This document shows, in pieces, positions 24,953 to 34,485 of a DNA stretch of 48,375 nt. Position numbers and translations under genes: made by a program. The notes below the pieces were generated by a model. That model was not told the DNA's origin, searched no databases, and saw nothing but the letters and a program-made list of their open reading frames with translations. Position 1 is the first letter of the stretch, and each line of letters opens with the position of its first letter. The DNA is taken from NCBI GenBank assembly GCA_026398275.1, contig JAPLTF010000009.1, positions 1 through 48,375 on the forward strand, read 5' to 3'. The stretch is from Verrucomicrobiota bacterium. GTDB lineage: Bacteria > Verrucomicrobiota > Verrucomicrobiia > Chthoniobacterales > Terrimicrobiaceae.

Positions 24953-25192
24953 CTAAATAATGCGCAGAACGATGCCCAGCACAAGGATCCCGATCCCAAA
25001 ACTCAATGGGATCATCAGGGCCATCCAACGGCGCGCCGTTTCAGATTCCTGCGTGCGCTGAGGCCGGGGACCGGGGCGGCCCTCATATCCGCGCTGCAGC
25101 AGGAATGAGTCCGACATCGGGATTTTCTGGATGCGATAAAGCGCCCGACCGGTCTGCCCGCCCGCCAAATCGTTTTCTCTCGGTGTATTCAC
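24953..25192 (-). CDS. Small single-TM protein, paralog A (YRIxKxPMS family)
   Basis: A 79-residue protein with a soluble N-terminal part and one C-terminal membrane helix (WMALMIPLSFGIGILVLGIVLRII). It is a paralog of the protein at 25380: both start MxT..E, have YRI at residues 19-21, then xKxPMS, an R-rich linker, a helix and a short end. This exact alignment supports the GTG start at 25192, even though no Shine-Dalgarno is visible. Two regulator-type sites lie 36 and 71 bases upstream of the start, as for the paralog. I do not recognise the family; a C-terminally anchored signalling or stress protein is possible. Confidence 0.7.
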   Translation of the reverse strand: MNTPRENDLAGGQTGRALYRIQKIPMSDSFLLQRGYEGRPGPRPQRTQESETARRWMALMIPLSFGIGILVLGIVLRII

Positions 25193-25227: not shown

Positions 25228-25245
25228 ATGCCGACAAGTGGGTAT
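25228..25245. promoter_or_regulatory. 18-bp operator-like site, proximal to paralog A
   Basis: ATGCCGACAAGTGGGTAT fits ATRCC-N7-GGGTAT (7-2-7 form TGCCGAC-AA-GTGGGTA). It lies 36 bases upstream of the small gene's start, the same distance as at paralog B. Confidence 0.7.
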
Positions 25246-25262
25246 TTTTCATCGCGGAATCC

Positions 25263-25280
25263 CTACCCATTAGTGGGGAT
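25263..25280. promoter_or_regulatory. 18-bp operator-like site, distal to paralog A
   Basis: CTACCCATTAGTGGGGAT is a variant of the same palindrome (TACCCAT-TA-GTGGGGA), 35 bases from the proximal site. Confidence 0.6.
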
Positions 25281-25379
25281 GCCCAACAAGGAAACCGGGA
25301 GGGCCACCTGGCGCACGAGGACATTATCCTGGTTCGAAACCGCTCAAACTTGATGCCCATGCCCGGCGGGGCAGGCGCA

Positions 25380-25631
25380 TCAGAAGAAGTGCAGGATGAC
25401 CGCCGAGAGAAGCGAGCCCGCAGCAAAACTTAAGAAAACGATCAGCGCCACTCCACTGTATGCGCCATCGGGGGCCTGTGACTCGGCGGTCCGATACCTG
25501 TATCGGGAGCGGTTCTCATACCTGCGATGAAGCTGGAAGGTCCAGTCGGATGACATCGGGGTTTTCTTGATCCTGTAAAATGCCGGGGGTTCCTGCTCGA
25601 TCGACCAATAGTCTTCTTTCGATGTAGCCAT
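25380..25631 (-). CDS. Small single-TM protein, paralog B (YRIxKxPMS family)
   Basis: An 83-residue protein with ATG start, a soluble half (YRIKKTPMSSDWTFQLHRRY, then arginine-rich) and a C-terminal membrane helix (SGVALIVFLSFAAGSLLSAVIL). It is a diverged tandem copy of the gene at 24953, with the same N-terminal spacing and the same upstream site geometry, so promoter and gene were duplicated together. Function is unknown. It is divergent from the PEP-CTERM gene at 25758, and the 25703 site could serve both. Confidence 0.75.
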   Translation of the reverse strand: MATSKEDYWSIEQEPPAFYRIKKTPMSSDWTFQLHRRYENRSRYRYRTAESQAPDGAYSGVALIVFLSFAAGSLLSAVILHFF

Positions 25632-25666
25632 GGGCGAAAATTAATAATTTCCGCTAATAGCACGCA

Positions 25667-25684
25667 ATGCCGTGTAATGGGTAT
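25667..25684. promoter_or_regulatory. 18-bp operator-like site, proximal to paralog B
   Basis: ATGCCGTGTAATGGGTAT (TGCCGTG-TA-ATGGGTA) lies 36 bases upstream of the ATG at 25631, matching the position at paralog A. Confidence 0.7.
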
Positions 25685-25702
25685 TTTTAAAGTGCAAGAA
25701 AA

Positions 25703-25720
25703 ATGCCAACTAGTGGGTAT
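25703..25720. promoter_or_regulatory. 18-bp operator-like site between paralog B and the PEP-CTERM gene
   Basis: ATGCCAACTAGTGGGTAT (TGCCAAC-TA-GTGGGTA) is 36 bases from the neighbouring site and 38 bases upstream of the ATG at 25758, so it could control either direction. Confidence 0.7.
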
Positions 25721-25757
25721 ATGAATGGCGACACGAAAAGAGTAATTTGTCGGCGTT

Positions 25758-26453
25758 ATGAAAATCTCTTATGCGCAACAAATGGTGAGAACCTCCCTCC
25801 TCGCCGGTCTCGCCGCCGCTTTCCTGGCCACCTCCGCAACGGCTGCGACGATTTCGTTTTCCGATACGAAGTCGGTCGGGGCGGCTTACACGGATTTCTA
25901 TCTGGGAAAATTCGACACTGGGCTGGGCACCTTGACAGCCGTGCAGATCAAGGTGGACTTCAGCACCCTGGCTGGGTCGTTTACGGTAACAAGTTCATCA
26001 GCAAGTGCCGTCACGGTTAATGGTTTTGATGTTGCTTTAGTGGTGAAGCAGAATCCCGCAAATGGCTATACCCAGAACGGATTGACTCTTTACGACGTAG
26101 TAACCTCGCCAAATTGGAGTTCGACACCTGTTGCTGGAAATTCTTCCCAAATTTTCACGATTGTCGGGGGGCAAAGTTACACGATCAGCCCGCAAACCAT
26201 ACCGTCCTTGAATTTTAGCGCCTACGAATCTGTCGGCGGCGTCGGCTCGGTAGATATGCAGGCAAAAGCTACTCCCACGATTGGTGTGTCGGGAGGAGCA
26301 TACTCGGTCGATCCGACTGCAACGGTTGCCAACACGAAGCTGACAGTGACCTACACCTACACAGCCGTTCCGGAGCCGACTACGATCGGGCTTCTGGCGG
26401 TTGCGGGCGCGCTTGGTCTGCTGGCGGCCCGCGGGCGGCGCGCGTCGAAGTAG
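25758..26453 (+). CDS. PEP-CTERM-type exported protein
   Basis: The 231-residue protein has a signal peptide (TSLLAGLAAAFLATSATAA), a beta-rich mature domain full of Ser, Thr, Val and Gly, and a classical PEP-CTERM tail: VPEPTTIGLLAVAGALGLL followed by basic ARGRRASK. It is likely exported and processed by an exosortase encoded elsewhere. The start region MKISYAQQMVRTSLLAG fits a signal peptide. It is the only exported protein in the signalling block, and an 18-bp operator-like site lies 38 bases upstream of its start, so it is a candidate output of the regulator at 28489. Confidence 0.85.
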   Translation: MKISYAQQMVRTSLLAGLAAAFLATSATAATISFSDTKSVGAAYTDFYLGKFDTGLGTLTAVQIKVDFSTLAGSFTVTSSSASAVTVNGFDVALVVKQNPANGYTQNGLTLYDVVTSPNWSSTPVAGNSSQIFTIVGGQSYTISPQTIPSLNFSAYESVGGVGSVDMQAKATPTIGVSGGAYSVDPTATVANTKLTVTYTYTAVPEPTTIGLLAVAGALGLLAARGRRASK

Positions 26454-26493
26454 CTGCACGAGATTCGTCCGCATCACCCACGGTCGCGATGTA

Positions 26494-26514
26494 GGGGCGC
26501 TCTATGAGCGCCCA
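26494..26514. terminator. Hairpin between convergent genes
   Basis: GGGCGCTC-TAT-GAGCGCCC is a perfect 8-bp stem, with a further ATGAGCGCCC repeat behind it. It lies between the stops of the PEP-CTERM and TPR genes. A bidirectional terminator is possible, although no T run follows. Confidence 0.5.
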
Positions 26515-26571
26515 TGAGCGCCCATCCCCGGTTGCTTGCCACGGTTTGGTTTCTCCGAAGCAATATGCGCC

Positions 26572-27342
26572 CTATTTCTGCAGGTTGCTGAAGTAGAACG
26601 CCGCGATTTCCGGGCGGGCCATGTGGCGGACGAGGGCCGGGTCATTGAGCATATGGTCGAAGACTTGTGGCGGGACCGACACCTTTGCGACATCGAGGAT
26701 TTTTTTGGCTTCGGAGAACTCGCTATTTTGGAGGGCGACGCCGCAAAGCCCGAAGATCCACGCGGCGGTGTTTTCTGTGCCGCCGTGTTCGCGGAGGGAC
26801 TTGATCTCGGCATTCGCCTGATCGACATGCCCGGCCTGGACCATCAAAAGGAGTCGTTCGTTTGAGATGGTGATATCCCTCGGCGCGGCGGCCGCGGCCA
26901 GATCCATGTCCTTCGCCGCGGGGACGAGGTCCCCCCGCTGCCGGAGGAGGCGGGCGCGGTGCCAGTAGAGGCTTCCCGACGGCCGGATCGCCAGCCCCCG
27001 CGTGTATTGGACCATCGCGGATTGGGAGTTTCCCACGGCCTCTTCCAGCATGCCGGCCAGCTCCCACCCCTCAGCCGACTGCGCGCTCTCCAGATCGACA
27101 TGCAGCAAGACCCTCCTTGCGGCATCCACATCGCCCGAGAGAAAAAGGCGGGACGCCTCATCGATTTCCTTGCGGGAGCTTCCTGCCGCCGCGGCAGGCG
27201 ACCTTTCTTCGGGCGGCGGGGCTTTCGGGCGGAGGAGGATGGCGACGCAGGCGAGCAAGATGACGGCGAGCCCGAGAACGGCCACCATGGTGATCCTGTC
27301 CTTGCGGTATCGGGGGTCTTGAAAGTAGTTCAGTCGGTGCAT
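26572..27342 (-). CDS. Membrane-anchored TPR-repeat protein
   Basis: The 256-residue protein has a short basic N-terminus (NYFQDPRYRKDRI), one membrane helix (TMVAVLGLAVILLACVAILL, about 18-37) and a helical repeat domain with TPR-like units (for example AEGWELAGMLEEAVGNSQSAMVQYTRGLAIRPSG and WHRARLLRQRGDLVPAAKDMDLAA). TPR domains act as protein-interaction scaffolds; here it would face the periplasm or the cytoplasmic membrane surface. It follows the 27412 gene by about 70 bp on the same strand and is probably the last gene of the signalling operon. Confidence 0.75.
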   Translation of the reverse strand: MHRLNYFQDPRYRKDRITMVAVLGLAVILLACVAILLRPKAPPPEERSPAAAAGSSRKEIDEASRLFLSGDVDAARRVLLHVDLESAQSAEGWELAGMLEEAVGNSQSAMVQYTRGLAIRPSGSLYWHRARLLRQRGDLVPAAKDMDLAAAAAPRDITISNERLLLMVQAGHVDQANAEIKSLREHGGTENTAAWIFGLCGVALQNSEFSEAKKILDVAKVSVPPQVFDHMLNDPALVRHMARPEIAAFYFSNLQK

Positions 27343-27411
27343 GCGTGCGGCGGGGTGCGGCGGGCGGAAACCTGGACCCGCAAAGAGAAAAAGGCGATCA
27401 TCCCCGATAGT

Positions 27412-27756
27412 TCAGCTTCTCAAAAGCACAAAGATCCCGACCGCGGTGAGGATCGCGATCGCGGGAAGGATGATATAGCGGAGGATCCTGTCCTTTCCGT
27501 GGCGCCTGCTGCGCAACATGGAAAGCGCAGAACGGCGACGCTGCCGTTGGCGGGTGCCAGGGTCGATTGTTTTCGCAGGAGCCGGGCGGGAAACTGCGAT
27601 GCGTTCGGCGTCGTAGGCCGCTGCAGCCCCGTGCATGTGAGGCATTCTGTGAAATGCGGCGACCGCACGACTGACCACTCCGTGCAGCAGGGCGGCGGGA
27701 TCCCGGCGGCGACGGCTCCATCCGCCGAACGGAGGGCTTTGATGGGACGAACTCAT
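27412..27756 (-). CDS. Basic protein with C-terminal transmembrane helix
   Basis: This 114-residue protein is arginine-rich and low-complexity through its first 85 residues and ends in a membrane helix (YIILPAIAILTAVGIFVLL). Its GKDRILRYIILP entry resembles the RKDRITMVAVLG entry of the TPR protein downstream. ATG 27756 overlaps the TGA of the H-NOX-like gene (27756-27758) by one base, so the two are translationally coupled. The family is unknown. A competing frame on the same strand lacks a membrane helix and looks like a shadow. Confidence 0.55.
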   Translation of the reverse strand: MSSSHQSPPFGGWSRRRRDPAALLHGVVSRAVAAFHRMPHMHGAAAAYDAERIAVSRPAPAKTIDPGTRQRQRRRSALSMLRSRRHGKDRILRYIILPAIAILTAVGIFVLLRS

Positions 27757-28397
27757 CACCCCACAAGGGCCAGGTGCCCGGCATGGTGTTCGGTCCCGAG
27801 CGCCGTCCCGCTCCGGATCACGAACGTGTGGACGGTCTCTCCGCGGGGGGCGGATGATTCCGTGTGGGTGACGATCGAGGGCCCGTCCTGCCCTCCCTGG
27901 ATTTCAGACAGGAACCCTTTGAGGAACATGAGCAGGTCGCGCTCGCGGAGGACGCACTGGATTTTCAGCCCGGAATCGTTGGTCGCCCGGACCCGGAGGC
28001 TTCCCGGGACGATCGCGTCAAGGATCCATGAGCACGAGTTGTAATAGAACGCCGCCGCCGAAAAATAATCCGCCCCGGAGGCGAACGGGAGGCGCGGGAA
28101 GGTGCCGTCCTTCAGGCTGCAGGCGTAATGCCCGCCGAGCTGCTCCAGCATGTCGGGAACGCATGTGTCCAGAAGCTCGGCGGCGGAGTCGAGGAGCGTC
28201 GATCGATTGGAGGGGATCAGGCGGCCCTCCGTGACGGGCGACAATTTATCCAGCGCGGCGACCCTTTGCGGGCCATAGGACTCGATGTGCTGCTCGAAAT
28301 CGCAGAGGGGAAGACTTGCCTGAATGATGGAATGCCAGATCCTTTTCCCGAATTTCCGGACGACCATCTCCTGCAAAAGTATTTCCAGTTTCTCCAT
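27756..28397 (-). CDS. H-NOX/HNOB-like protein, heme ligand not evident
   Basis: A 213-residue protein whose N-terminus (LEILLQEMVVRKFGKRIWHSII, residues 4-25) closely resembles the first helix of H-NOX gas-sensor domains (xLxxxVxxxFGxxxWxxI). The NRSTLLDSAAELLDTCVPDMLEQLGGHY stretch (64-91) and the VPGSLRV...LKGFLSEI end (130-166) also follow H-NOX order. The proximal heme histidine before YPGM is replaced by a YNSCSW segment (119-124), and YxSxR is absent, so it may not bind heme in the usual way. About 45 poorly structured residues follow. ATG 28397 is chosen because the longer frame upstream is proline-rich and crosses the operator-like site. H-NOX proteins often regulate partner histidine kinases, which fits the neighbours. 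The assignment is by eye only. Confidence 0.45.
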   Translation of the reverse strand: MEKLEILLQEMVVRKFGKRIWHSIIQASLPLCDFEQHIESYGPQRVAALDKLSPVTEGRLIPSNRSTLLDSAAELLDTCVPDMLEQLGGHYACSLKDGTFPRLPFASGADYFSAAAFYYNSCSWILDAIVPGSLRVRATNDSGLKIQCVLRERDLLMFLKGFLSEIQGGQDGPSIVTHTESSAPRGETVHTFVIRSGTALGTEHHAGHLALVG

Positions 28398-28462
28398 GTC
28401 CTCAATGGCGGCGATCACCGCTGAGCACCTTGGAGAATAAGTCGGATGCGGCTGCGGCCGCC

Positions 28463-28480
28463 ATACCGTGTTGACGGTAT
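28463..28480. promoter_or_regulatory. 18-bp operator-like site upstream of the H-NOX-like gene
   Basis: ATACCGTGTTGACGGTAT is the most symmetric copy (TACCGTG-TT-GACGGTA). It lies 66 bases before the ATG at 28397 and directly after the response-regulator stop codon, so the downstream genes may have their own regulated promoter. Confidence 0.65.
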
Positions 28481-28488
28481 TTTTCGGG

Positions 28489-29106
28489 TCAGGAATTCTT
28501 ATGCGGGGCCGGGCGCTGGCAGTAGAGGGCGGCGGTGCGGACGAGGTCGGCACCGCTGGATTTCAGCTTCCGGGAAATGGCTTTTCTATGCGACTCAACC
28601 GTGCGCTGGGAGATGAAGAGCTCGGCGGCGATCTGCTTGTTTCCGCGCCCGTGCCCGACGAGCTGGAAGATCTCGAGCTCGCGCGGCGTGAGGAGGAGGG
28701 TGGGGTCGGTGCCGGAGGCATTCTCCAGAGCGGGAAATTTTTCCTTGAGAAGCGAATCCACCTCGCGGAGCAGGACGTCGAAGGCGCGCACTTTATCCAC
28801 GATCGCACGGAAGCATTTCGCCAGTTCCGGGCTCCACTCGACCTGACCGGGCTGTGCGGTGAGGAGGATGCACTCGATCCCCGGCACCAGCTCTTTCGCC
28901 TTCTGCGCGAGCAGCAGCCCGTCGCCTCCCGGGAGGACGAGGTCGAAGATGCCGAGATCCGGCCTGTGGTGTTCGACCGCCAGGAGCCCCTCCTGGACGC
29001 TGGTGGCGGTGGCGACGACCTCGATGTAGGGGACGGTCTTCAGCGTGGCCACGAGAAGCTCGAGGAACATGAGCTGGTCTTCGACAACGAGGCAGCGGAG
29101 TTTCAT
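28489..29106 (-). CDS. LuxR/NarL-type response regulator
   Basis: The 205-residue protein has a receiver domain (about 1-120: LRCLVVEDQLMFLELL, the phospho-acceptor Asp in GIFDLVLPGGDG, and a conserved Lys in IVDKVRAF). A C-terminal LuxR-type helix-turn-helix follows (about 140-200: LTPRELEIFQLVGHGRGNKQIAAELF, SQRTVESHRKAISRKL). It should be phosphorylated by one or more of the adjacent kinases and bind DNA as a dimer. ATG 29106 is preferred because CGGAG precedes it. NarL-type regulators bind 7-2-7 inverted heptamers, the geometry of the six 18-bp sites in this block, so it is the natural candidate regulator. Confidence 0.93.
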   Translation of the reverse strand: MKLRCLVVEDQLMFLELLVATLKTVPYIEVVATATSVQEGLLAVEHHRPDLGIFDLVLPGGDGLLLAQKAKELVPGIECILLTAQPGQVEWSPELAKCFRAIVDKVRAFDVLLREVDSLLKEKFPALENASGTDPTLLLTPRELEIFQLVGHGRGNKQIAAELFISQRTVESHRKAISRKLKSSGADLVRTAALYCQRPAPHKNS

Positions 29107-29145
29107 GCGCTCCGGCATGTTCTCAGATGTGCGCATCGCGGGCAA

Positions 29146-30210
29146 TCACTGTTCCGGGAGCGAGAGTTCGACCTCAAGCCCGGGCCCGACCGGCTTGAAG
29201 CGGAGTTGGCAGCCGTCGCATTTGATCTGGGCCTTGCAGATCGCGAGTCCGAGCCCGAGGCCCTGCTGCTCGCGCTCGTCGCGGTGGAACTGTTTGAACG
29301 GCCCGATCGCAGCGATCTCCTCCTCGCTCATCCCGCAGCCGTGGTCGCGGCAGCTCAGGGTCAGGTGCCCGTCGGCCTTCGTCATCTTCACCTCGACCTT
29401 CGAGCCTCGCGGGGAGAATTTGAAAGCGTTGGAGATCACCTCGCCCGCGATGCGGTCGAGGCAGTTCCCGCAGTGGGTCGGGGTTTCGAGCGTGTGGAGG
29501 ACGAGATCTTTTTCCCGGTCGGCCTCCTGGGCCAGCCTGGTGGCGACGGAGGCGACCAGCACGCCCGCCTCCACGGGGACGGTGGAATGGAAGGGGTCCT
29601 GGCCGGCGCTGAGCGAAAGATAGAGGATGTAGTTCAGGGCTGTCCTTTCGAGCCGGTTGGCGGCGTCCTCCATGAGGTCCAGAATCTCCCTGTTTTCGCT
29701 GCCGAGGTTGTTTTCATCCGCGCGAAGGATTCCGATCCCGCCGATGATGCCGCTCAGCGGGGTGCGGATTTCATGCGGGAGATACTTCAGCTTCCGGGCC
29801 TGATAGTTCGCCATATCAATCCCCGCGGCAGTCCGGCGCTTCTCGGAGCGCTCGAGGCGGGACTTGATCGCGGCGAGCAGCCCGTCGCTGGTGAACGGCT
29901 TGGTCACATAGTCGTCCGCCCCGAGGTTCATGCCCTCGCGCACCTGATTCACCTCGGCGAGGGCGCTGAGGAAAATGAATGGGACCTCGCCCCCTGAATG
30001 CATTTTCCGGACGTGGCCGAGGATGTCGTAGCCGGTCATTCCCGGAAGGATGATATCGCAGAGCACGAGGTCCGGAACCTTCTCCCTGAGCTTCTCCAAA
30101 GCCGGGGGGCCGGAGTCGAAGCCGGAAACTTCGTAACCGCTCAACTCGAGAAGCATCTTGGTGTTTTCCCGCAGGGGGGCATTGTCTTCGATAAGGAACA
30201 GGGTTTGCAT
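29146..30210 (-). CDS. Receiver-histidine kinase hybrid (REC-HisKA-HATPase)
   Basis: The 354-residue protein starts with a receiver domain (MQTLFLIEDNAPLRENTKML, Asp in VLCDIILPGMTGYD, Lys in DDYVTKPF; residues 1-120). A short HisKA follows (KYLPHEIRTPLSGIIGGI, about 150), then an ATPase domain (GEVISNAFKFSPRG, DHGCGMS, GLGLGLAICKA). With the receiver in front of the kinase core and no sensor domain, it looks like a phosphorelay intermediate: the receiver may take phosphate from the six-PAS kinase upstream and control this kinase's activity. ATG 30210 is used; the in-frame extension to 30648 lies inside the upstream gene. It starts 5 bp after that gene's stop. Confidence 0.9.
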   Translation of the reverse strand: MQTLFLIEDNAPLRENTKMLLELSGYEVSGFDSGPPALEKLREKVPDLVLCDIILPGMTGYDILGHVRKMHSGGEVPFIFLSALAEVNQVREGMNLGADDYVTKPFTSDGLLAAIKSRLERSEKRRTAAGIDMANYQARKLKYLPHEIRTPLSGIIGGIGILRADENNLGSENREILDLMEDAANRLERTALNYILYLSLSAGQDPFHSTVPVEAGVLVASVATRLAQEADREKDLVLHTLETPTHCGNCLDRIAGEVISNAFKFSPRGSKVEVKMTKADGHLTLSCRDHGCGMSEEEIAAIGPFKQFHRDEREQQGLGLGLAICKAQIKCDGCQLRFKPVGPGLEVELSLPEQ

Positions 30211-30215
30211 AAAGT

Positions 30216-33200
30216 TCAGATGGTTGGAGTGAAGTCGTCGTCGAGAGGGATGGTGACAGAAAATCCGGATCCGTCCGGCTGCGGCGCGTATCGCATCCGC
30301 CCCCCATGGGCCTGCGCGCATTTCTGGGCGATGAAGAGCCCGAGGCCGGAGCCGGGCCTGTCCCCGACATTCGACGCCCGCGAAAACGCGTCGAAGAGGA
30401 ATTGCCTCTCCGCCTCCGGAACCCCGATCCCCCGGTCGAGAACCGAGAGGGTGAGCGAGTCCAAGCCGGCCTCCACGCCGAGCTCGATGCGGGTGTCGTC
30501 CGGCGAGTATTTCAGCGCGTTTTCCAGGAGGTTTTTCAGAATATGGTGGAGGAGGCGCTCGTCGGCCATGACGCGCAGCCCGGCATTGCGGAAGGCGATA
30601 TCGATCCGCGAGGGGGATTTCAAGTCGGGCTGGACCTCCTGACAGCACCGCTTCAGGAAGTCGAGCAGGGCGAAGCGGACCGGGGTGCAGGGCAGCTTCC
30701 CCTCCTCGATCTTTCCGGCGAGGAGGAGGTCGTCAAGGGTCCGCGCCATCGAGGACGCGCCGGTCATCAGACCCGACAGGACCGACTGCGACCGCTCGGG
30801 CGGCATCGCGTTGCCGAAATTTTTCAGGATCTCGCAGGCGACCATGATATTGGCGAGCGGGGTGCGGAGCTCGTGGCTGGCCATCGAGACAAACCGCGAC
30901 TTGAGGCGGGTGAGTTCCTCGGCACGGGCCAGGTTTTGGAGGGCGGCGGCCTCCGCGCGCTTGAACTCGGTGATGTCCCAGTTCGTGCCGACCATGTGGA
31001 AGGGTTTGCCGTCGACGTTCCGCTGCACGAGGGCCATGGCGCGGATGTGGTGGGTGCTCCCGTCCGGCCAGACCACGCGAAAATCGGTGTTGAAATCCTT
31101 TTCGCCGCGCAGCGCCATTTGGATCTCGGCATCGCCACGTTCGCGATCATCCGGGTGGAGTCCCGCCTGCCAGGCCTCGTAAGCCGCGGTGAAACGATCC
31201 GGCGTGATCCCGTAGAGGCGATACATGCGGTCGTCCCAGACGAGGCGATCGTTGACAACGTCCCAGTCCCAGATGCCGACCTGTCCCGCCCTCGTGGCCA
31301 GCGACAGACGGTCGACAAGCTGCTTCAGCTCTTCATCCTTTTGCTTTTGCTCGGTGATGTCGGTGATGAAGCCGTGCCAGAGCACGGACCCGTCCTCCTC
31401 CCGCTGCGGCACGGAGTTCCCGTAAAGTAGCCGGACCGTGCCGTCGGCGAACCTGACCCGATACCCGTGTTGCCAGGGCGTGAGGTCCCGAGCCGATTGT
31501 TGGATGGACTCGACGACGCCCCCGCGGTCGTCCGGGTGGACGTTCGCAAAAACTTTAGAAGCATCCTCGCGGACCTCTTGTGGCGTGACCCGGTAGATGT
31601 CTTTGATGGCATCGCTGGTGAACGGGAAGCAGGATGTCCCGTCGGGGCGCATGCGATGCTGGTAGAGGACCCCTGGGACGCGGTCGGCGATTTTCAGGAG
31701 GCGGGTCAACAGCTCCTCGCGGTCCTGCTTCGCGTGGTTGATTTCGGTGATGTCGAGGCAGGACCCTATGAAGCCGAAAAAACTTCCATCCGGCGCGACC
31801 CGGGGAACGCCATGATCCTGCAGCCAGCGGTATTCTCCATCGGCGCGACGCAGGCGGTATTCCATCTTGAATTCCCGATGCGCCTTGAGCGCCAGCCGGT
31901 AGGTGCGCATGCAGGTTTCGAGATCGTCCGGGTGGACGCCTTCCGTCCAGCCGTTGCCGAGTTCCTGCTCCAGCGTGCGCCCGGTGAAATCGAGCCACGG
32001 CTGGTTGAAATAGTGGCAAAGGCCGTCCGTGCCGGACTCCCAGAGCAGGACCGGCGCGGAGTCGGCCATGCTGCGGAATCGCCCCTCGCTTTCCTGCAGG
32101 AGCCGGGTTGTCTGCTTGAGCGCCGTGACGTCCATCCACACGGAAAGCAGGTGCCGCTGTCCCCTCATCACGACCACCTCGGCGGAGCAGAGCACCTCGA
32201 GAAGCGTCCCGTCCGCGCGCCTGACCTGGAGCTCCATGTTGTGCAGCCTCCCGTCGGATTCCAGTTTTGCAGAGGTGCGGTCCATGGCCCCCGGGTCCGG
32301 GAAAATTCCGAGTTCCAGAGCTGTCTTCCCGAGGACCTCCGCCTTCGAGTATCCAAGCGCGGAGAGAAACTCGGTGTTCACATCCACAAACCTCCTCTCG
32401 GGGAGGGTCGAGAGGACCATGATCGCCGGGCTGTTGTGAAAAAGCAGCTCGAAGCGCTGCCGGGCCTCCTGCTCCTCCGTGATGTCCTTGCAGAGCCCGA
32501 ACAGGCAATCCTTCCCGTCCCACTTCCCCGGCCAGACCCGCGTCTCTACGAGGAGGCGGATGCCGGACTTTGTTTGCAAAGGCAGCGGGCAGGTCTCGCG
32601 CTCCTTGCGCAGCATGGCTCCGACGATCTCCGCCGCCTTCGGTCTGTGCTCCGCCGGATGCAGGTCGATCAGGAGCATCGCCCGGAGTTCCTCCGCGGAG
32701 TATTCAAGCTTCCGCGAGGCCGCGCGGTTGCTGAAGAGGATTTGACCGTTCTGGTCTCCGACGAAGATCATGTCGTCGAGGGTCTCAAAAAACGTGCGGA
32801 AGTTGTCCTCGCTCTCCCTGAGCGACTGCTTGATCGCCCCGATGCGCTCGCTGGCGTCGCTGCAGATGCAGGCGATCCCGCCGTCGGGCAGGAGGCTCAG
32901 GGACAGCTCCTGGACAAAATGGCTTCGGTCCTTTCGGTGGCCGCGGACCTGCCCGCGCCAGATCTTTTTTTCCAGCAGGACGGGGAACACCGACTTCTCG
33001 ATGAATTCGATCTCCTCCTGCGTGTAAAAAATGTGCCAGCTCTGCCCGAGGACCTCCGCGGCCTCGCGGTATCCGAAGAGCGAAAGGTGGGCGGGGTTGA
33101 TATAGGTGTAGCACCCGTCAGGGCCGGTGATCGCGATCCCCTCCGAGGCCGCATCCAGGGCGGTCGCGCGGTTCTGAAGCTCCCGGGCGGCGGCTCTGGC

Positions 33201-33281
33201 CTTGCGCGCGTTGCCGGGCAGCTTTACGGTGGCCACTTCCAGCCTGACCGCCTTCCGCGGAGAATTTTTGATCTTCGGCAT
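30216..33281 (-). CDS. Soluble multi-PAS histidine kinase
   Basis: A protein of about 1021 residues with six consecutive PAS domains by eye. Markers are AASEGIAITGPDGCYTYINP, FFETLDDMIFVGDQNGQILF, FHNSPAIMVLS, MADSAPVLLWESGTDG, ADRVPGVLYQHR and ATRAGQVGIWDWD. Most end in a DITE-type linker, and the WxxxVHPDD pattern is repeated. The kinase core has HisKA (FVSMASHELRTPLANIM, about 790) and ATPase boxes (LLENALKYSPDDT, DRGIGVP, GSGLGLFIAQK). There is no membrane helix, so it senses cytoplasmic signals. It has no receiver of its own; the next two genes supply one each. An 18-bp operator-like site lies about 105 bases upstream, suggesting control by the system's own regulator. ATG 33281 or the preceding GTG 33284 may start translation. 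Confidence 0.92.
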   Translation of the reverse strand: MPKIKNSPRKAVRLEVATVKLPGNARKARAAARELQNRATALDAASEGIAITGPDGCYTYINPAHLSLFGYREAAEVLGQSWHIFYTQEEIEFIEKSVFPVLLEKKIWRGQVRGHRKDRSHFVQELSLSLLPDGGIACICSDASERIGAIKQSLRESEDNFRTFFETLDDMIFVGDQNGQILFSNRAASRKLEYSAEELRAMLLIDLHPAEHRPKAAEIVGAMLRKERETCPLPLQTKSGIRLLVETRVWPGKWDGKDCLFGLCKDITEEQEARQRFELLFHNSPAIMVLSTLPERRFVDVNTEFLSALGYSKAEVLGKTALELGIFPDPGAMDRTSAKLESDGRLHNMELQVRRADGTLLEVLCSAEVVVMRGQRHLLSVWMDVTALKQTTRLLQESEGRFRSMADSAPVLLWESGTDGLCHYFNQPWLDFTGRTLEQELGNGWTEGVHPDDLETCMRTYRLALKAHREFKMEYRLRRADGEYRWLQDHGVPRVAPDGSFFGFIGSCLDITEINHAKQDREELLTRLLKIADRVPGVLYQHRMRPDGTSCFPFTSDAIKDIYRVTPQEVREDASKVFANVHPDDRGGVVESIQQSARDLTPWQHGYRVRFADGTVRLLYGNSVPQREEDGSVLWHGFITDITEQKQKDEELKQLVDRLSLATRAGQVGIWDWDVVNDRLVWDDRMYRLYGITPDRFTAAYEAWQAGLHPDDRERGDAEIQMALRGEKDFNTDFRVVWPDGSTHHIRAMALVQRNVDGKPFHMVGTNWDITEFKRAEAAALQNLARAEELTRLKSRFVSMASHELRTPLANIMVACEILKNFGNAMPPERSQSVLSGLMTGASSMARTLDDLLLAGKIEEGKLPCTPVRFALLDFLKRCCQEVQPDLKSPSRIDIAFRNAGLRVMADERLLHHILKNLLENALKYSPDDTRIELGVEAGLDSLTLSVLDRGIGVPEAERQFLFDAFSRASNVGDRPGSGLGLFIAQKCAQAHGGRMRYAPQPDGSGFSVTIPLDDDFTPTI

Positions 33282-33385
33282 CACATCGGTTGGCTTTGCC
33301 GGCGCGGGCAGAGGTTTTTAGTGGATCGGCGCATGAACAATGTCGGGATGCCCATGACCATACTCTGAGGAAGGTGGAATTTGCC

Positions 33386-33403
33386 ATACCGTGAAGTGGG
33401 TAT
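33386..33403. promoter_or_regulatory. 18-bp operator-like site upstream of the six-PAS kinase
   Basis: ATACCGTGAAGTGGGTAT (TACCGTG-AA-GTGGGTA) fits the consensus. It lies about 105 bases before the kinase start codon, in the promoter region of the signalling operon. Confidence 0.7.
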
Positions 33404-34400: not shown

Positions 34401-34485
34401 TGGTGCTCACGAGAGGATTCGAACCTCCAAGGGTTACCCCATACGGTCCTGAGCCGTACGCGTCTGCCAGTTCCGCCACGTGAGC
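34401..34485 (-). tRNA. tRNA-Leu (CAG)
   Basis: Read on the minus strand, the 85-nt sequence folds as a class II tRNA. The acceptor GCTCACG pairs with CGTGAGC before an encoded ACCA end. The D arm is GGCGGAACTGGCAGACGC, the anticodon stem TACGG/CCGTA holds loop CTCAGGA (anticodon CAG), there is a variable arm, and the T arm is GGAGGTTCGAATCCTC. The long variable arm and the CAG anticodon identify leucine. Confidence 0.95.

Follow-up and report, generated by a model that had tools for sequence, protein, structure and literature searches.

The window analysed here, a stretch of 48,375 nucleotides from a Verrucomicrobiota genome, contains six palindromic sites near a gene for a response regulator of the NarL/FixJ family (Table 1). 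The most probable reading, to which a probability of about 0.8 is given, is that of a locus-restricted, positively autoregulated phosphorelay in which this regulator acts at sites of the 7-2-7 type. A local, autoregulated regulon of LuxR/NarL type had been proposed in the first-pass annotation, and the proposal has held up in the rarity and promoter bias of the sites, their conservation at orthologous loci, their dependence on the clade of the regulator, their distance from -10-like hexamers and the matching classes of targets in a relative of the same genus. Binding by the regulator, the order of phosphotransfer, the activating sign and the signal are inferred.

Table 1. Features of the locus, in window coordinates. 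Mismatches are to the string ATRCC-N7-GGGTAT; G001 is the relative of the same genus.
Feature	Positions	Strand	Place or description	Basis	-10-like hexamer, offset
7-2-7 operator (predicted)	25228..25245	.	proximal to sm1	exact string match, 25.3 bits	TTTCAT, 23
7-2-7 operator (predicted)	25263..25280	.	second (upstream) site of sm1	2 mismatches	
7-2-7 operator (predicted)	25667..25684	.	sm2-proximal, divergent sm2/PEP-CTERM promoter region	exact match	TAATTT, 24
7-2-7 operator (predicted)	25703..25720	.	proximal to PEP-CTERM gene	exact match	TAATTT, 23
7-2-7 operator (predicted)	28463..28480	.	H-NOX-like gene	1 mismatch, nearly symmetric	TATTCT, 24 (likewise at the G001 orthologue's site)
7-2-7 operator (predicted)	33386..33403	.	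upstream of kinase-kinase-regulator operon	exact match	TATGGT, 24
sm1	24953..25192	-	small protein, C-terminal transmembrane segment; resembles sm2	translation by eye	
sm2	25380..25631	-	small protein, C-terminal transmembrane segment	translation by eye	
PEP-CTERM secreted protein	25758..26453	+		PF07589 1.7e-4, above cut-off	
TPR membrane protein	26572..27342	-	last gene of H-NOX-like run	PF13428 1.5e-5	
Small protein	27412..27759	-	C-terminal transmembrane segment; downstream of H-NOX-like gene	translation	
Divergent H-NOX-like protein	27756..28397	-		HNOB match of G001 orthologue; hhalign	
NarL/FixJ-family response regulator	28489..29106	-	REC + GerE/LuxR HTH	Pfam GerE 5.6e-16, Response_reg 3.5e-11	
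REC-HisKA-HATPase protein	29146..30216	-	operon gene 2	domain scan; orthologues adjoin regulator in G001, G006, G012	
PAS-repeat histidine kinase	30216..33284	-	operon gene 1	six PAS by inspection	
tRNA-Leu (cag)	34401-34485	-			

All six sites described in the first-pass annotation were recovered at their coordinates, and all are intergenic or in promoter positions. The motif is an imperfect palindrome of the ATACCCAYT-ARTGGGTAT type, with two heptamers around a 2-bp centre. The heptamer recognized by NarL is TACYYMT (PMC4886647), and such heptamers are arranged 7-2-7 (PMC9314961); here inverted TACYYMT-like heptamers were likewise found 2 bp apart, specifically at that spacing. The 7-2-7 layout in the original description thus stands, while its asymmetric string understates the inverted-repeat symmetry. 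Paired sites, 35 bp apart at sm1 (25263 and 25228) and 36 bp apart in the sm2/PEP-CTERM region (25703 and 25667), suggest cooperative binding.

With a symmetric matrix the six sites scored 20.9-25.5 bits, and no other position in the window came near them (best 7.3), in agreement with the earlier view that the window has no further copies. When each site was omitted in turn from the matrix, it was still the top match in the window (15.0-24.1 bits vs 6.4-9.5 bits for the best non-site). A matrix built from seven sites at the G001 locus, with no window site included, placed the same six on top, at 28.1-13.1, followed by 11.6. With a matrix of picocyanobacterial sites, the top five window positions were five of the six, that at 25263 being the first. 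A string search allowing 2 mismatches gave 19 matches against a mean of 11.3; this is barely above chance and was dropped as evidence, so significance rests on the matrix and comparative tests.

Genome-wide counts were obtained by pattern searches over the 4.66-Mb assembly. The relaxed palindrome ATNCCN3WWN3GGNAT, which does not cover the 25263 site, occurs at 22 places, five of them within this 8.2-kb stretch, where 0.04 would be expected (Poisson P 7e-10, a post hoc value since the motif was derived from this stretch). The other 17 places are mostly inside long open frames, and every one scores 17.1 bits or less. Three further exact matches to the string in the genome (C23, C96 and C116), inside long open frames and at 7 bits or less, were set aside as chance. 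As far as pattern searches can tell, the motif is therefore uncommon in the genome and biased toward promoters.

The sites recur beside orthologues of the regulator in related genomes. In G001 the regulator orthologue is 70% identical and has seven sites within 20 kb around it. The classes of targets match those of the window: a PAS-kinase operon, a 1541-residue PATR/PEP-CTERM protein, an H-NOX-like gene and small membrane proteins. Sites precede the orthologous kinase operon in G001 and, among more distant orthologues, in G006 and G012, with one at the same place in G009, and stand before the regulator gene in G008 and G015; at least one site was found at each of the orthologues in G006, G008, G009, G012, G015, L091 and L123. 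In G001 the orthologous operon (L049:9091-16816) contains PAS-kinase-like genes and REC-kinase genes in two copies each, and a further site separates the two REC-kinase genes. Away from its main locus, G001 also has two strong sites, one before a TerC-family gene and one before an amidohydrolase gene (L085:5663, L086:6480). One more candidate in that genome, C55:9245, scores 20.7 bits but apparently falls within a coding region and was discounted as a chance match.

A preferred distance to -10-like hexamers was seen when 18 non-redundant sites were compared: on the flank facing the gene, the hexamers peaked at offset 23 with a score of 3.23; none of 1000 dinucleotide shuffles reached this value (mean -0.94, maximum 0.64), and the non-gene side gave -0.91. 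The best offset was identical in the window, G001 and the other genomes, each taken alone. Sites in Verrucomicrobiota tend to stand about 22 bp before the hexamer and are centred about 32 bp upstream of it, near -44 from the start of transcription, where starts are predicted and the target strand for several sites was assigned from the neighbouring gene. The hexamers are weak, mostly matching 3-5 of 6 positions, and the G015 site is without one (2 of 6). The cyanobacterial sites discussed below have their -10-like peak near offset 29, about 6 bp farther. At ogt1052, a single NarL 7-2-7 site at -44.5, 32 bp upstream of the -10, is sufficient for activation (PMC9314961). Since the window layout matches that of ogt1052, we infer activation; and since the 33386 site precedes the kinase-kinase-regulator operon, autoregulation would follow if the regulator binds there.

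In the mechanism proposed, phosphate would reach the NarL/FixJ-family regulator from the PAS-repeat kinase, which is soluble, and from the REC-kinase. Once phosphorylated, the regulator dimer would bind the palindromes centred near -44, where a -35 element would otherwise stand, and would activate promoters whose -10-like hexamer lies about 22 bp beyond the site. Targets would be its own kinase-kinase-regulator operon, the PEP-CTERM gene, the small tail-anchored membrane proteins, and the divergent H-NOX-like gene with those downstream of it. The palindromes could instead be operators at which the phosphorylated regulator represses; autorepression is common among response regulators, and regulatory sign is not given by sequence alone. 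Repression is nevertheless improbable, given that the distance of about 22 bp to the -10-like element, with the site at the -35 position, fits the NarL-activated ogt1052, and that a sigma-70 scan gave one promoter-like site in the region, away from these promoters.

Binding by the regulator encoded at the locus, rather than by another LuxR-type regulator, is favored by the distribution of sites in the wider family. At least three more regulators of this family are encoded in the genome, and one of them might bind the sites instead. A family scan of named genomes covered 66 loci. TACCCA-N4-TGGGTA, with at most one mismatch, was present at 27 of 39 loci of close relatives and at none of 26 distant ones, although many of the 39 are closely related to each other and the 27 are not independent events. 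Permuted palindromes were found at a mean of 0.8 of the 39 loci (maximum 6) and other spacers at 0-1 loci. In the tree, every one of the 29 loci that bear a site belongs to a single clade with support of 100/99, in which the recognition helix is mostly TVE[ST]HRK; 11 of the 40 tree rows in this clade had no site in the DNA examined, some perhaps from short contigs. The sites thus go with the clade of this regulator, in different genera and in two phyla, and were not found beside distant members of the family, which makes binding by a regulator encoded elsewhere very unlikely. The palindromes might also be terminators or copies of a dispersed repeat, which is less likely still: TTTT follows three sites, and in some cyanobacteria the kinase frame ends within the site or shortly before it, but half-site letters are conserved beyond what pairing alone would need, a constant spacer of 4 separates TACCCA from TGGGTA, the sites precede genes, with one divergent promoter region included, and the pattern is rare in the remainder of the genomes.

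Unexpectedly, many of the close relatives belong to the freshwater picocyanobacteria Cyanobium, Synechococcus and Vulcanococcus. There the site is usually found where the kinase gene ends, ahead of a conserved gene. In these picocyanobacteria an aldehyde dehydrogenase-like gene, recognized by eye, follows the site and the conserved gene (L099:11753-13144). The regulator of L100, a record titled Bifidobacterium breve, is nearly identical to that of L099, a cyanobacterial bin, and the name of the record is probably wrong. In ten genomes reached through the family loci, no more than three copies of TACCC-N6-GGGTA were counted in any one; in six of the ten, either no copy or just one or two copies lie outside the locus. 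Somewhat speculatively, the regulator and its operator may have moved between Verrucomicrobiota and freshwater picocyanobacteria as a self-contained unit restricted to its locus, with the operator letters kept and the kinases and targets exchanged.

Both domains of the regulator, the N-terminal receiver and the C-terminal GerE/LuxR HTH, score above their cut-offs, and its acidic pair E9 and D10, with the phosphoacceptor Asp55 and Lys105, is invariant among six orthologues. It falls short of the NCBIfam equivalog cut-off for the nitrate regulator NarL (57.4 bits vs 250). Among the targets named in the first-pass annotation, the small membrane, PEP-CTERM and kinase genes are retained, the H-NOX-like gene encodes at most a distant relative of that family, and the locus gains a further small membrane gene, its third (27412-27759), together with the REC-kinase gene. 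No match to sm1 or sm2 was found in Pfam or NCBIfam, nor to the third small protein in Pfam; the C-terminus of the latter is similar by eye to that of its G001 counterpart. The PEP-CTERM motif at the C-terminus of the secreted protein scores 21.9 bits against a cut-off of 20.7.

An H-NOX protein with a partner histidine kinase is a known arrangement, and the H-NOX-like gene here similarly adjoins histidine kinases. The window protein has no Pfam match; its G001 orthologue matches HNOB (PF07700) at 6.1e-5 and 23.4 bits, under the curated cut-off of 25.5. A two-sequence profile compared with seven H-NOX proteins by hhalign gave an E of 2.7e-4 with a probability of only 42%, and the structure model was of poor quality (mean pLDDT 39). 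In the alignment the window protein departs from canonical H-NOX in having Tyr for the invariant heme-ligand His, which its G001 orthologue keeps; neither protein has an intact YxSxR motif. Kinship with H-NOX is weak, and the protein would be a distant relative with broken heme motifs. From its orientation, the TPR gene would belong to the same operon. The genome also has a canonical H-NOX gene (HNOB 1.9e-35) at another place (G000:C36:50643-51122).

For an uncharacterised signalling locus of Verrucomicrobiota, these results provide an operator, a promoter layout and a list of targets that can be tested, and they would open the control of a PEP-CTERM protein and of unnamed small membrane proteins to direct test. 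In the open-licence literature, searched by title and abstract, nothing was found that matches this motif in Verrucomicrobiota or links it to PEP-CTERM genes, nor was a regulator site of such kind found described for the phylum. The locus is of moderate note, chiefly for its local confinement and cross-phylum conservation, as a natural example of one operator retained across two phyla.

Dedicated regulation of a PEP-CTERM gene has a parallel in floc-forming Aquincola, where the gene is reported to be RpoN/sigma-54-dependent (PMC9850573); here there are NarL-type sites with a sigma-70-like -10. The closest likeness is to NarX-NarL and NarQ-NarP of E. coli, which share a REC-HTH regulator of the same family and inverted near-TACYYMT heptamers 2 bp apart (PMC4886647, PMC9314961). 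A site at -44.5 is enough for activation by E. coli NarL (PMC9314961), and about -44 is predicted here. The systems differ in the recognition helix (TVESHRK here, TVKVHVK in E. coli NarL) and in the sensors, a soluble PAS kinase with a REC-kinase in place of NarX/NarQ. The targets seen here include no nitrate-respiration genes, and the sites are local, whereas those of the E. coli NarL regulon are spread genome-wide.
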